NCBI GenBank assembly: GCA_023381945.1
Contig: JAMCQY010000114.1
Location: forward strand, 1 to 16,581
Direction: 5' to 3'
Source of the DNA: Deltaproteobacteria bacterium
GTDB taxonomy: Bacteria > Desulfobacterota > Desulfobaccia > Desulfobaccales > 0-14-0-80-60-11
Length of the DNA: 16,581 bases
The first letter of the stretch is position 1. Each line of letters opens with the position of its first letter. The translations under genes and the position numbers were made by a program. Below the pieces are notes generated by a model. It was not told the DNA's origin, made no database searches, and saw nothing but the letters and a program-made list of their open reading frames with translations. Shown here piece by piece: positions 2,878 to 14,887 of the stretch.

Positions 2878-2896
2878 TTGAGGAGGGGCACTGTTG

Positions 2897-3856
2897 ATGG
2901 CTGAAGCTGTACTCTTTGATCTGGTGATCATCGGCGGCGGTCCCGGCGGCCTGACTGCCGGGATATATGCCATGCGCGCCGCGCTCAAAACCATACTGAT
3001 TGAAAAAGGGCTGCCCGGCGGCCAGATCAACCTGACCGAAAGCGTGAAAAATTATCCAGGTTTTGAGAATATCAGCGGTTTTGACCTGTCCCAGAAGTTT
3101 TTGCAGCACGCCCAGGCCTACGGGCTGGAAGTGCGAAACGCCGAAGTGGTTGCAGTGGAACCGGGATTAAAATTTCATACCATTCGGTTAGCCAACGGTG
3201 GCACGCTAAATACCCTGGCAGTGATCCTGGCCACCGGCGGCAGCCCACACAAGCTGGGGATTCCTGGGGAATCGGAATATTACGGCCGGGGAGTATCCTA
3301 CTGCGCCACCTGCGACGGCTTCTTTTTCCGCGGCAAGACCGTGGTGGTGGTGGGCGGCGGCGACACCGCCCTGGAGGAGGCGCTTTACCTCGCCAAGATC
3401 ACCAAGCAGGTTTACCTGGTTCACCGCCGGGACGCCTTTCGGGCCAGCCGGATTTTGCATCAGCAGGTGGAGCGCGAAGGCAAAATCCAGGTCTTATGGA
3501 ATACCGTGATTACTCAAGTGAAATCCAATGCCAGCGGCGTTTATGCGGTTGATTTGCAGGACACGCAGACGAAGGCCGCTCGGGAATTGGCCACGGACGG
3601 CGTCTTCATCTTCATCGGCTTTATGCCCAACAACCAATTGGTGCCCGCCGGGATTCGCCTGGATCATGAGGGCTACGTGATGACCGATGAACGCTGTCAG
3701 ACCAATATCTCGGGGATCTTCGCCATCGGCGACCTGCGGCAGAAAAATGCCAAGCAGATCGTCATTGCCGCCGCGGATGGCTGTACCGCAGCCCTGTCCG
3801 CGGCCCTGGATGTGGAAATCAAAAAGAATCATAACAACCAGTCTCCCCAGGGATGA
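2897..3856 (+). CDS. trxB: Thioredoxin-disulfide reductase (TrxB-like flavoprotein)
   Basis: A 319-residue protein of the usual low-molecular-weight TrxB length. The FAD site GGGPGGLTAGIYAMRA is near the N-terminus (about 12-27). The redox motif CATCDGFFF has cysteines at 136 and 139. The NADP(H)-binding part shows VVVVGGGDTALEEA, and VHRRDAFRAS is the arginine pattern linked to NADPH preference. The C-terminal FAD motif is FAIGDLRQKNAKQIVIAAADG. In the family it passes electrons from NADPH through FAD and the CxxC pair to thioredoxin. AGGAGG at 2881-2886 precedes the ATG; a TTG one codon earlier is also possible. The stop overlaps the next gene's ATG (ATGA), indicating translational coupling to the ArsR regulator. 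The partner thioredoxin is not adjacent, but a putative thioredoxin-fold selenoprotein lies 1.5 kb downstream. Confidence 0.92.
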   Translation: MAEAVLFDLVIIGGGPGGLTAGIYAMRAALKTILIEKGLPGGQINLTESVKNYPGFENISGFDLSQKFLQHAQAYGLEVRNAEVVAVEPGLKFHTIRLANGGTLNTLAVILATGGSPHKLGIPGESEYYGRGVSYCATCDGFFFRGKTVVVVGGGDTALEEALYLAKITKQVYLVHRRDAFRASRILHQQVEREGKIQVLWNTVITQVKSNASGVYAVDLQDTQTKAARELATDGVFIFIGFMPNNQLVPAGIRLDHEGYVMTDERCQTNISGIFAIGDLRQKNAKQIVIAAADGCTAALSAALDVEIKKNHNNQSPQG

Positions 3857-4233
3857 GGAACAGGATTATCAAGACGCCAATCTCCCTACAGCCCTCGGGC
3901 GCCTCAGAGGGTCTCGAGGCAGGGACGCCCTTGGAGCAATCCCTAGAGATGGTGGCCTTTGTGGCCAGGACTCTGGCGGATGAAAATCGTCTGCGGATTC
4001 TGTTGTGCCTTGATAATGGCAAAAAGTCGGTCTCCGGCATTGTCGAGGAACTGAGCCTGTCGCAGCCGCTGGTGTCCCATCACTTGAAGGAACTGCGCCG
4101 GGCCTTGCTGGTCAGGGTGGAGCGCCGCGGCCCCTTTGTATATTACGAGCTGGCCGACAACCGGATCCTGAATATTCTGGCGGCCCTGAAAGATCTGGCC
4201 TCCGACCTGCTGGCCGCCCGGACGAGCTTTTGA
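3853..4233 (+). CDS. ArsR/SmtB-family transcriptional regulator
   Basis: A 126-residue winged-helix protein. The typical ArsR opening VARTLADENRLRILLCL (about 36-52) is followed by KKSVSGIVEELSLSQPLVSHHLKELRRA, which holds the recognition helix, and by the wing VRVERRGPFVYYELAD. The ELCVCDL metal-binding box of classical ArsR/SmtB proteins is absent, so the signal sensed cannot be read from the sequence. The ATG overlaps the trxB-like stop codon (ATGA). About 30 residues precede the conserved part, so an internal start at 3949 is possible, although coupling favours 3853. Co-transcription suggests it controls its own operon, perhaps through the palindrome at 2866-2877. Confidence 0.85.
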   Translation: MRNRIIKTPISLQPSGASEGLEAGTPLEQSLEMVAFVARTLADENRLRILLCLDNGKKSVSGIVEELSLSQPLVSHHLKELRRALLVRVERRGPFVYYELADNRILNILAALKDLASDLLAARTSF

Positions 4234-4242
4234 TTTTTAGTT

Positions 4243-4344
4243 GTCAGCTATCAGCATTCAGCTATCAGCTAAAGCAAAAGCAGTGAAATATCTGATTTGT
4301 CCTGTTCTTAAGCTGACGGTTGAAAACTGACCGCTGAATGCTTT
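4243..4344. repeat. Inverted repeat with CAGCTATCAGC/CATTCAGC modules
   Basis: AGCATTCAGCTATCAGCT (4253-4270) matches the reverse complement of 4325-4342 at 15 of 18 positions. The left arm also contains a near-tandem TCAGCTATCAGC. It is noncoding, sits right after the ArsR stop and resembles dispersed intergenic repeats. It might fold in the 3' end of the trxB-like/arsR mRNA. No poly-T tract follows, so it is not a standard terminator. Confidence 0.6.
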
Positions 4345-4402
4345 AAAGTCTTAAAGGGAATGAAATGGGCAGGCAGGCTCGGCAAACAGAAGTAATAATA
4401 AG

Positions 4403-4459: not shown

Positions 4460-4564
4460 TTACTTCTCCTTAGGCTTTTCAGCCTGCTGCTGGGGTTTGG
4501 CAACTTCGGCCTTGCCTTTCTTCAAGGAACAGCCGCAGCCGCAGGTGCTTTTTTGCTCTGCCAT
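4460..4564 (-). CDS. Small cysteine-rich peptide with CGCGC motif (34 aa)
   Basis: A 34-residue reading frame starts MAEQKSTCGCGC and continues with a Lys/Gln/Glu/Pro-rich, probably disordered tail ending KPKEK. It has no membrane segment. Support for it being real: AGGAGGT sits 7-8 bases before the ATG, a 16-bp inverted repeat of ArsR-operator style lies 29 bases upstream of the start, and it follows an ArsR gene on the same strand. The three cysteines at 8, 10 and 12 suggest binding of a soft metal or metalloid, or a redox role. That is inference, since I do not recognise a named family. The neighbouring ArsR protein has a similar CTCGC cluster, which hints at a shared ligand. It is too short for default gene callers. 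Confidence 0.7.
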   Translation of the reverse strand: MAEQKSTCGCGCSLKKGKAEVAKPQQQAEKPKEK

Positions 4565-4634: not shown

Positions 4635-5042
4635 CTATTTCGACTTCAGCTCCTCAATTCTCTGGCGAACATTTTCCAGTTCATTTTGCAGGTCCTGCGC
4701 ATATTGCTTCAAGGACTCCAGAGGGGTTTCGCGTCGCTCTTTTTCCCGCCAATGGCCGCTGCCCCGGCAGCCGCAGGTGCAGACCTCCGACAGCCGGCGC
4801 CGGTATTCTTCCAAGACTTCGGGATTAACGGCATACGGAATCCAGTATCCCTGGCGCTCGCTCCTGACCAACCCGGCCTGTTTCAGAATTTTAAGATGCT
4901 GCGAAGCCGCCGCCGCGGTTATGCCCGTCAGTCGGGCAATTTCTTTGGCCCCCAAAGGGCCTTGACCCTTCAAGAGTTCAAGGATTTTTACCCGGGTTTC
5001 CACCGCCAGGGCCTTGAACATTTCGGAGATTTCACATTCCAT
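4635..5042 (-). CDS. ArsR/SmtB-family regulator with C-terminal Cys cluster and coiled-coil-like tail
   Basis: A 135-residue protein. The N-terminal winged helix begins MECEISEMFKALAVETRVKI, followed by GAKEIARLTGITAAAASQHL (recognition helix with the SQHLK pattern) and the wing RSERQGYWIPYAVN. After it comes a CTCGCRGSGHW segment, a possible metal or metalloid site together with the Cys near the N-terminus. A charged helical tail (SLKQYAQDLQNELENVRQRI) may be a coiled coil. I prefer the ATG at 5042. An in-frame ATG at 5063 abuts the operator and would leave a leader of only about 11 bases. Neither start has a clear Shine-Dalgarno sequence. The promoter and operator just upstream indicate autorepression. 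The likely co-regulated gene is the CGCGC peptide gene 70 bases downstream. The inducer (arsenic, selenium or another thiophilic species) is unknown. Confidence 0.87.
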   Translation of the reverse strand: MECEISEMFKALAVETRVKILELLKGQGPLGAKEIARLTGITAAAASQHLKILKQAGLVRSERQGYWIPYAVNPEVLEEYRRRLSEVCTCGCRGSGHWREKERRETPLESLKQYAQDLQNELENVRQRIEELKSK

Positions 5043-5062
5043 GAACGGTAACCGATTAAGCA

Positions 5063-5080
5063 TTTAAGTGATTGCTTAAA
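5063..5080. promoter_or_regulatory. Candidate ArsR operator at the arsR promoter
   Basis: TTTAAGTGATTGCTTAAA has 6-bp arms TTTAAG/CTTAAA. It lies directly downstream of the -10 box, over the expected transcription start, where a repressor would block initiation. It shares its outline with the repeat at 4593-4608. Confidence 0.6.
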
Positions 5081-5126: not shown

Positions 5127-5316
5127 TTTTATAGCAATTGCCAAAAGTTTTTTCCTAAATGTGGTGTACGCAACTTCTCAAAATCCCCCCTATCCCCCCT
5201 TTTTCAAAGGGGGGAACTCAGTGGAATTCCTTTAAAAGTCTCCCTTTGAAAAAGGGGGATTTAGGGGGATTTGAAAAGCCAGCCACCAGAAGAAACTTTT
5301 GGCAAACACTATAAAA
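5127..5316. repeat. Large inverted repeat enclosing repeat copy A2
   Basis: The left arm 5127-5150 and right arm 5293-5316 match at 21 of 24 positions as inverted repeats: TTTTATAG, three mismatched bases, then a perfect 13-bp TTGCCAAAAGTTT. Between them lies the family A palindrome. The whole looks like a short MITE-like insertion or a cruciform-capable leader. The right arm runs into AAAAGGAG, the ribosome site of the selenoprotein gene. Confidence 0.65.
5181..5272. repeat. GC-rich palindromic repeat, family A, copy 2
   Basis: It has the same arrangement as copy 1: AAATCCCCCCTATCCCCCC at the left and GGGGGATTTAGGGGGATTT at the right, each adjoining a small C-run/G-run hairpin. It lies in the leader of the selenoprotein gene, inside a larger inverted repeat. 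Confidence 0.85.
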
Positions 5317-5327
5317 GGAGAAAAACC

Positions 5328-5645
5328 ATGCTCAAAGTCAGATTTTTCCTGAACGAACCCAACGGCAAGCCGTGAAAGCATTTCCTCCAGATGATGCCCA
5401 GGTTGGGCCAAAAGTACCGTTTCGAATGCGAAGTCATCTCCAAGCCCATTGCCGAATACCAAGCGGATGAATATTTTGAATTAGACCTGCCCACGGCGCC
5501 AGCAGTAATGGTGGCTGACGAGATCGTGGTGGAGGGCGCCGACGTGCCCGAGGATAAGATCGAGGCCGTCATCTGCCGGCATCTGGGACTGCCTGAGCCG
5601 GAGCCGCAGAAAAAGGGCTTCTTCGGAAGGCTCTTAGGCGGATAA
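5328..5645 (+). CDS. Putative selenoprotein: thioredoxin-fold protein with in-frame TGA (Sec) at codon 16
   Basis: From an ATG with AAAGGAG 7-8 bases upstream, the frame reads MLKVRFFLNEPNGKP, then TGA at 5373-5375, then continues without another stop to 5645 (105 residues including Sec16). The two halves make sense as one domain: a first strand KVRFFL, a Sec where the thioredoxin fold places its reactive Cys, a helix (KHFLQMM), then the later LPTAPAVMVADEIVVEG with a probable cis-proline (P58) as in glutaredoxin-like and redox-active disulfide proteins. Cysteines occur at 34 and 83. A SECIS-like hairpin follows the TGA at a suitable distance. The codon after the TGA to the next ATG (5391) is coding-like, and that ATG has no ribosome site, so restart is less likely. 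A small thiol/selenol oxidoreductase is inferred; substrate unknown. The alternative is a nonsense mutation. The gene is 21 bases from the TVP38 gene, probably the same operon. Confidence 0.68.
5376..5430 (+). promoter_or_regulatory. Bacterial SECIS-like element after the in-frame TGA
   Basis: GCCC (5396-5399), loop AGGTT (5400-5404) and GGGC (5405-5408) form a tight stem-loop whose loop starts 25 bases after the TGA. The AGGU-type loop resembles the apical loop of the E. coli fdhF SECIS, which SelB recognises. GCATT (5378-5382) can pair with AATGC (5425-5429) as a distal closing stem. The apical stem is only 4 bp, so the element is plausible but not proven. Confidence 0.55.
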
Positions 5646-5666: not shown

Positions 5667-6365
5667 ATGCCGACCGAAAAACTCAGAAAAACCGCCCTGA
5701 TCAAGGCGGCTATCCTGGCGGTCTTCGTGGTGGCGGCTATCCTGGCGGTGCGTTATACCTCCATCAAGGACTTCCTGACGGTGGCGAGGCTTGGCGGTCT
5801 CCTTGAAGCCGCAGGCTGGTGGGCGCCCCTGGCCTTTATCCTGATTTACGCCGCCGGGATCTGCCTGTTTATTCCGGGCACCCTGCTCACCACCCTGGGG
5901 GCCGCGATTTTCGGCCCCTATTGGGGTTTCTTATATGTTTGGATCGCCGCCATGCTGGGAGCCACCGGCGCCTTCCTCATCGGCCGCTACCTGGGCCGGG
6001 AATTTGCCGCCTCCCTCATCGGCGGCCGGCTCCGGAAATACGATGACGCCATTGAGAGGAACGGCTTCGCCACCGTGCTCTACCTGCGCCTGGTCTATTT
6101 CCCTTTCACCCCCATGAACTTCGGCATGGGTCTGACCAAGGTAAGGTTCAGGGATTATTTCTGGGGCACCGGCCTGGGCATCCTGGTGGGGACCTTTATC
6201 TTTACCTTCTTCGTGGGCACCGTCAAAGAAGTCTGGGCCACCGGCCACTGGGCCAACCTGCTGAACTGGAAGGTGTTCTTCTCCCTGGCCCTGTTTATCG
6301 GGTCACTGTTCATTCCCAAAATCATCAACAGGCTAAAGAATTGGCAAGACCTTAAGTCCCGTTAA
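5667..6365 (+). CDS. TVP38/TMEM64 (DedA-superfamily, VTT domain) membrane protein
   Basis: A 232-residue integral membrane protein with segments at roughly 12-30, 48-71, 76-105, 155-190 and 200-218. The VTT/SNARE-associated domain is recognisable: FIPGTLLTTLGAAIFGPYWG, GRYLGREFA and the conserved YLRLVYFPFTPMNFGMGLT-V----Y--GT-LG pattern. E. coli relatives are YdjX and YdjZ. The family is thought to act in membrane lipid or small-molecule movement, and members often sit in metal or metalloid gene clusters; no substrate can be assigned here. Its start has AAAGGAG 4-5 bases upstream. It follows the putative selenoprotein by 21 bases, so the two are probably co-transcribed and may act on the same compound (inference). 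Confidence 0.88.
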   Translation: MPTEKLRKTALIKAAILAVFVVAAILAVRYTSIKDFLTVARLGGLLEAAGWWAPLAFILIYAAGICLFIPGTLLTTLGAAIFGPYWGFLYVWIAAMLGATGAFLIGRYLGREFAASLIGGRLRKYDDAIERNGFATVLYLRLVYFPFTPMNFGMGLTKVRFRDYFWGTGLGILVGTFIFTFFVGTVKEVWATGHWANLLNWKVFFSLALFIGSLFIPKIINRLKNWQDLKSR

Positions 6366-14649: not shown

Positions 14650-14887
14650 TGTCTTGATGGCACAGGCGTCCGGCTATGCGGCGCAGGCCAAAGCGGCAAT
14701 CATAGTGCAGGGTGTTAAAGCCCCCCCTTTGAAAAAGGGGGATTTAGGGGGATTTCATGGGTGTATTAAAATCCCCCCTACCCCCCTTTAGAAAAGGGGG
14801 GAGATAAAAAAACACTTACAAAGCCTTTCCAATTATGAAAAATCACTGATTCCACATCAGGCGAACCTGACAAACCAAAGGAGCACA
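14650..14887. other. Intergenic region before the carboxyltransferase gene
   Basis: A gap of about 240 bases filled mostly by repeat copy A3. The last 80 bases are AT-rich and end in AAAGGAG 4 bases before the ATG. I saw no convincing promoter, so the carboxyltransferase may be transcribed through from upstream. Confidence 0.5.
14721..14802. repeat. GC-rich palindromic repeat, family A, copy 3 (arms inside-out)
   Basis: It has the same two arm types as copies 1 and 2, but in swapped order: the C-run/TTTGAAAAA/G-run arm with GGGGGATTTAGGGGGATTT comes first (14721-14755) and the AAATCCCCCCTACCCCCC arm second (14769-14802). The GATTT/AAATC ends therefore face inward instead of outward. Confidence 0.85.

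Follow-up and report, generated by a model that had tools for sequence, protein, structure and literature searches.

The window, a stretch of 16,581 nucleotides analysed here as a whole, carries a short gene with a single in-frame UGA codon, set among genes for a thioredoxin reductase, two ArsR-family regulators, a small cysteine-rich peptide and a membrane protein. The gene, tsoC, very probably encodes a selenoprotein. The features of the locus are listed below in order of position.

2894 to 3856, forward strand: trxR, a thioredoxin reductase gene with a CATC active site (TIGR01292, 369.5 bits against 343.45), overlapping tsoR by 4 bases
3853 to 4233, forward strand: tsoR, encoding an ArsR/SmtB-type regulator (NF045707, 160.1 bits against 115)
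4235 to 4353, no strand: a 119-bp stretch in the position of tsoA-tsoB-tsoC1, containing an inverted repeat (4253-4268/4327-4342)
4460 to 4564, reverse strand: a Cys-rich peptide of 34 aa (MAEQKSTCGCGCSLKK...), encoded downstream of arsR2 and with its own ribosome site
4635 to 5063, reverse strand: arsR2, encoding another ArsR-family regulator, which contains a CTCGC stretch (NF033788, 84 bits against 55)
5128 to 5313, no strand: an element of about 186 bp bounded by 28-nt terminal inverted repeats, lying between arsR2 and tsoC and immediately 5′ of the ribosome site
5316 to 5320, forward strand: Shine-Dalgarno sequence AGGAG, seven bases 5′ of the ATG at 5328
5328 to 5645, forward strand: tsoC (TsoC2 type), 105 aa with the probable selenocysteine (Sec) as residue 16
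5373 to 5375, forward strand: the UGA codon, codon 16, very probably read as selenocysteine
5396 to 5408, forward strand: SECIS hairpin GCCCA-GGU-UGGGC, 5 bp with a GGU loop; the stem lies 20 nt and the loop 25 nt from the UGA
5499 to 5501, forward strand: codon of the presumed cis-Pro (P58 of TAPA)
5574 to 5576, forward strand: codon of Cys83
5667 to 6365, forward strand: a VTT-domain (TVP38/DedA-like) membrane protein (PF09335, 86.2 bits), the next gene after tsoC, in conserved synteny

The tsoC frame and its UGA codon

The frame from 5328 to 5645 forms one gene of 105 codons that reads MLKVRFFLNEPNGKPU-KHFLQMMPRLG... and contains no in-frame TGA other than codon 16. Ordinary ORF calling returns 5391-5645 (84 aa), and the protein-set entry for the window, P0002, is exactly this shortened form. 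The original prediction had proposed the ribosome site, the single TGA, coding-like sequence before it and a standard gene call from 5391, and each of these is borne out by the window and its relatives.

The protein search returned 1901 relatives at E 0.01. Sixty-two copies of TsoC were gathered from 45 sequences, the window included, and 61 of them are intact; the copy at L009 (genome G008) is a fragment and is excluded from every codon and hairpin count, and a distant Cys form in G012 lies outside the intact set. Codon 16 is TGA in all 61 intact copies, one of which shares only 31% identity with the window. Of 395 sampled genomes of the phylum, 31 yield a TsoC match (30 over the cut-off), and 42 of the 43 matches contain exactly one internal TGA, the exception with none being the match of G012, which falls below the cut-off. 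In the order of G284, TsoC is present in 15 of 29 genomes and all 28 matches carry one TGA; the two samples overlap in several genomes.

Codons 2-15 show a pN/pS of 0.17 over 43 comparisons, made with those of the 60 relatives whose identity to the closer of two query paralogues is 70% or more, and are thus under purifying selection before the UGA. Synonymous divergence (pS) is 0.667 before the TGA vs 0.363 after it, a fall that is expected of an RNA element 3′ of the codon. If the TGA were instead a true stop, translation would restart at the ATG at 5391 or 5394, as the standard ORF call has it, and the 15 upstream codons would be a leader or a chance stretch. A later start (ATG, GTG or TTG at codon +6 or +7) does exist in 58 of the 61 copies, but it is absent from three and is preceded by a 4-mer resembling a ribosome site in only 15 of the 58, against 57 of 61 copies with such a 4-mer 5′ of codon 1. 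Moreover, N9, P11 and G13 are invariant in alignment A4, as are residue 16, L26, L54, P55 and A59 (P58 nearly so), and the Cys homologues read straight through residue 16. Judged by the upstream pN/pS and the ribosome-site counts, the early start explains the copies better than the later ATG, and a restart is highly improbable. Homologues beginning at the later ATG had been posed as a refutation of the selenoprotein; the copies favour the early start.

The predicted SECIS-like hairpin after the TGA is likewise supported by covariation. In alignment A1 (61 sequences), helix columns 24-28/32-36 are paired in 97.7% of 305 cells, with double-sided changes in three helix pairs (six cells), and RNAalifold recovers the same helix. 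None of 500 shuffles of A1 reaches any of five helix measures, a control that ignores relatedness. In a sliding control, which keeps relatedness, the true register ranks top on percentage paired, double-change pairs, pair types and covariation score, and is level with slide -1 on double-change cells (6 each). Helix variants include CCU-AGG-UUA in L054, UCCC-GGGA in L070 and CCCC-GGGG in L068; pairing is lacking in four sequences at one helix position and in three at another. Codon choice within the hairpin is biased as well, the Arg codon being AGG in 56/56 cases vs 35/213 elsewhere in the same genes (Fisher p 5e-34) and the Pro codon CCC in 56/57 vs 198/449 (Fisher p 3e-17), with p values that overstate the effect because the TsoC copies are related.

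Folding energy is less distinctive: the window's 48-nt stretch (-7.8 kcal/mol, z +0.41) is no different from shuffles, and the 24-nt hairpin by itself, at -7.0 kcal/mol, is borderline against the published -7.5. The bacterial SECIS model, as given in the Fig. 2 legend of a 2026 review (PMC13188914), has a loop of 3-9 nt, a stem of 4-16 bp, a G in the first two loop positions, a UGA-to-loop distance of 16-37 nt and an MFE of -7.5 kcal/mol or lower. The tsoC hairpin lies within the model's loop, stem, loop-G and distance limits (GGU, 5 bp, 25 nt). A scan of the window with Rfam at gathering thresholds matched no family. As far as the alignments can tell, the hairpin is real across the family and is preserved by compensatory changes.

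Family membership, decoding machinery and fold

The window protein matches the NCBIfam equivalog NF045708 (seleno_TsoC, "NEPxGxxU motif selenoprotein TsoC") at 147.8 bits vs a cut-off of 45, over profile positions 1-86 of 87, and the UGA falls on the U of the motif NEPNGKPU. The review places TsoC in the Tso (three selenoprotein operon) system, citing Haft and Tolstoy 2025 (PMC13188914). The family had not been recognised as a described selenoprotein; the NF045708 match and the listing in the review identify it as TsoC, and the idea of an undescribed family was discarded. The window gene shows no difference from TsoC of NF045708, but its neighbours TsoA and TsoB are missing here.

Residue 16 is spanned by 25 of 32 retrieved proteins and is Trp in 17, Cys in 6 and Arg in 2. 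Cys aligned to this residue, the homologue pattern to be looked for, is therefore present in these six proteins, and also in the distant G012 form, whose motif is NNPMGVRC and whose TsoC score of 27.8 bits is below 45. The entries with Trp at the Sec position are P0003, P0004, P0006 and 14 other database proteins; most simply, they would come from short contigs on which genes were called with TGA as Trp.

At L073 (1712-2716, reverse strand), a natural fusion joins the Cys-form TsoC domain to a DUF5714 region (164 bits) that is common with MbdU (NF045648), a metal-binding double selenoprotein. MbdU is a different protein: TsoC is without DUF5714, and the G012 fusion protein, which has MbdU as its best NCBIfam match, scores 318.7 bits, under the cut-off of 600. 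A search of the public protein set with the G012 Cys domain returned its own cluster only.

The selenocysteine-decoding genes, whose search had been proposed as a check, are found in most of the relatives' genomes. SelB is over the cut-off in 22 of 23 distinct genomes (7/8 and 16/16, with one genome common to both sets), SelD in 15 of 19, and tRNA-Sec in 20 of 26 (6/8, those at 73.9 bits or more, and 14/18); no tRNA-Sec over the cut-off was found in G003, G004, G304, G360, G404 and G409. In G402, the nearest relative as judged by this locus, SelB and tRNA-Sec are present and no SelD passes the cut-off. Among 14 control genomes, SelB and SelD each pass in 2, and tRNA-Sec passes in 5, so its cut-off is not fully specific; at E 1e-10 just 2 of the 14 remain. 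Selenocysteine decoding in the window's own organism is assumed from these genomes of relatives.

A reassigned code in which TGA is read as tryptophan, to which the 17 of 25 Trp entries would point, can be set aside as scarcely credible: trxR and tsoR of the window both end in TGA, SelB and tRNA-Sec occur in most relatives searched, the SECIS helix covaries, residue 16 is Cys in 6 of 25 proteins, and TGG stands at this codon in 0 of 61 genomic copies. The selenoprotein reading of the original prediction is supported by TGA conservation, upstream constraint, SECIS covariation and family membership, and we consider it very probable that the gene encodes a selenoprotein of the TsoC family.

For the predicted thioredoxin fold the evidence is profile similarity. 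An hhalign comparison of the family with Thioredoxin_3 (PF13192) gives 84.5% probability (E 6.9e-6) over 54 columns, covering residues 21-82 and leaving out the N-terminal active-site part. Individually, 8 of 54 members match Thioredoxin_3 (best E 1.6e-4), and the window protein is not among them. Profile similarity thus lends moderate support to a thioredoxin-like fold. The similarity includes the Pro-Ala loop; TsoC differs in having one Sec and no CxxC partner. The cis-Pro loop that had been claimed coincides with the nearly invariant P58, inside the Thioredoxin_3-aligned stretch, and its geometry is still presumed from sequence. A PDB sequence search gave no convincing relative, its two matches (E 0.053 and 0.1) being weak and unrelated. 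A Pfam match to Helicase_C_2, seen in 27 of 54 members with a best E of 0.011, was rejected as chance; the window protein itself scores 14.2 bits against a cut-off of 25.3.

The position of a second cysteine varies among the 61 copies: Cys12 is present in 13, Cys83 in 32, both in 0 and neither in 16. Since no second Cys is common to all copies, they cannot all rely on an internal selenylsulfide. Likelier candidates are a mixed selenylsulfide formed with a partner and a metal(loid) selenolate.

An apparently trimmed tso operon

With the Tso system (TsoA NF045695, TsoB NF045694, TsoR NF045707) the window shares tsoR and tsoC, and its locus is without tsoA, tsoB and tsoC1. The gene order is otherwise that of G284 and, from tsoR onward, that of G402. 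In G284 (L050), the order is trxR-tsoR-tsoA-tsoB-tsoC1, then the peptide and arsR2 reversed, then tsoC2 and VTT. G406 (L105) has the same order, with trxR cut by the contig end, and so does G402 (L102) from tsoR on, where its contig begins; G404 (L101) reads trxR-tsoR-tsoA-tsoB-tsoC1-tsoC2-VTT with arsR2 more distant. The window keeps trxR, tsoR, the peptide, arsR2, tsoC2 and VTT.

The window trxR is 72-78% identical to its matches in G284, G404, G001 and G406. Among 29 genomes no other long match exceeds 48%, and G379 and G014 contain short fragments of 61-73%. The gene adjoins tsoR in the window, G284, G404 and G406, and the G001 match is on a different contig from tso. The window trxR belongs to a distinct group that is tso-linked in several relatives. 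Matches to arsR2 are found in 11 relatives' loci at 69-83% and in L054 at 57%. In 11 other loci, relatives of the Cys-rich peptide adjoin arsR2 or lie close to it, and the peptide itself has no Pfam or NCBIfam match. The VTT gene follows tsoC2 with a strong match (67-82% identity) in 16 of 44 relatives' sequences and a weak one (31-36%) in 6 of 44. A methyltransferase double selenoprotein (NF047649) adjoins the locus in G002, as found by a family scan of one locus (L075), and tblastn relatives of 70-73% occur in five other loci of the order. The G284 genome also contains a TsoB-family match over the cut-off with no in-frame stop (C128:37540-39243), i.e. a form without UGA codons, as well as a normal two-UGA TsoB elsewhere.

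The 119 bp at 4235-4353 correspond in position to L102 262-2782 (reversed), a segment running from immediately behind tsoR to the final bases of tsoC1. No match to TsoA, TsoB or TsoC1 is left in the window by tblastn. There is a real, though lesser, chance that tsoC is correctly read and this gap is an assembly artefact, created by an assembler jump over a repeat at 4235-4353. The stretch is A+T rich (G+C 0.378 vs 0.566 for the window), holds an inverted repeat, and is found where the closest relative by locus, G402, has the full set. However, no exact copy of the repeat word of 4235-4353 occurs anywhere else in the window, so the stretch does not show itself as a dispersed repeat, and the two junctions with G402 coincide with gene ends. 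TsoA and TsoB (at E 1e-20) are moreover both missing from 4 of 42 TsoC genomes (G028, G136, G301, G382); a lone TsoC thus seems to occur, in assemblies that may be incomplete. G008, with its fragment of TsoC, has no TsoA and a weak partial TsoB match, and some other absences of TsoA or TsoB touch contig ends.

A genuinely trimmed operon, from which the usual partner selenoproteins are gone, would make the locus unusual within a family that is itself already known. With tsoA, tsoB and tsoC1 gone, TsoC2 would act together with trxR, the regulators and VTT, or with proteins encoded elsewhere in the genome. It is conceivable, if rather doubtful, that TsoC2, trxR, the two ArsR-type regulators, the CGCGC micropeptide and VTT form a self-sufficient minimal module without TsoA and TsoB, so that Tso would fall into two halves that can be separated and that each have a TsoC paralogue of their own. 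The other four loci with a lone TsoC (L061, L068, L071, L072) argue against it, having no trxR and, in L071 only, a partial VTT match. L072 has a reversed ArsR-family gene adjoining, and a comparison by eye of the ORFs around the four genes revealed no common partner.

Proposed function of TsoC and wider significance

In the proposed mechanism, the hairpin at 5396-5408 would direct SelB and tRNA-Sec to insert selenocysteine at the UGA (5373-5375), yielding the 105-aa protein. This protein would adopt a thioredoxin-like fold and present a single selenol at the place of the first cysteine of the thioredoxin CxxC. TsoC is probably cytosolic and may cycle between the selenol and a mixed selenylsulfide, or its selenol may carry a soft metal(loid). 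The module would be under the switch of two ArsR-family regulators, the linked thioredoxin reductase would keep it reduced, and the VTT protein could perform a membrane step. A metal(loid)/thiol function for TsoC has about even odds, and its metal(loid) part draws on the neighbouring genes only. A competing reading, somewhat less probable, has TsoC act as a plain thiol/selenol reductase or a peroxidase partner of thioredoxin and gives it no part in metal(loid) chemistry. The thioredoxin-like similarity and the linked thioredoxin reductase fit such an activity; the ArsR-family regulators on both sides, the methyltransferase selenoprotein neighbours in relatives and the fusion of the Cys form to a domain common with a metal-binding selenoprotein speak against it.

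SECIS covariation and codon constraint back TsoC as a real selenoprotein family independently of the family model. The locus also suggests that an operon reduced to TsoC alone can exist, points to the linked thioredoxin reductase as the reductant, and offers a small testable unit of the Tso system, whose chemistry is not stated in the passages of PMC13188914 consulted. The TsoC paralogues differ in the placement of their only extra cysteine, Cys12 and Cys83 never standing together.

The element at 5128-5313, absent from G402, looks like a miniature mobile element. It also has an inner 31-nt inverted repeat, and its CCCCCTTTTTCAAAGGGGG core recurs in the window at 2110-2159 and 14723-14801.
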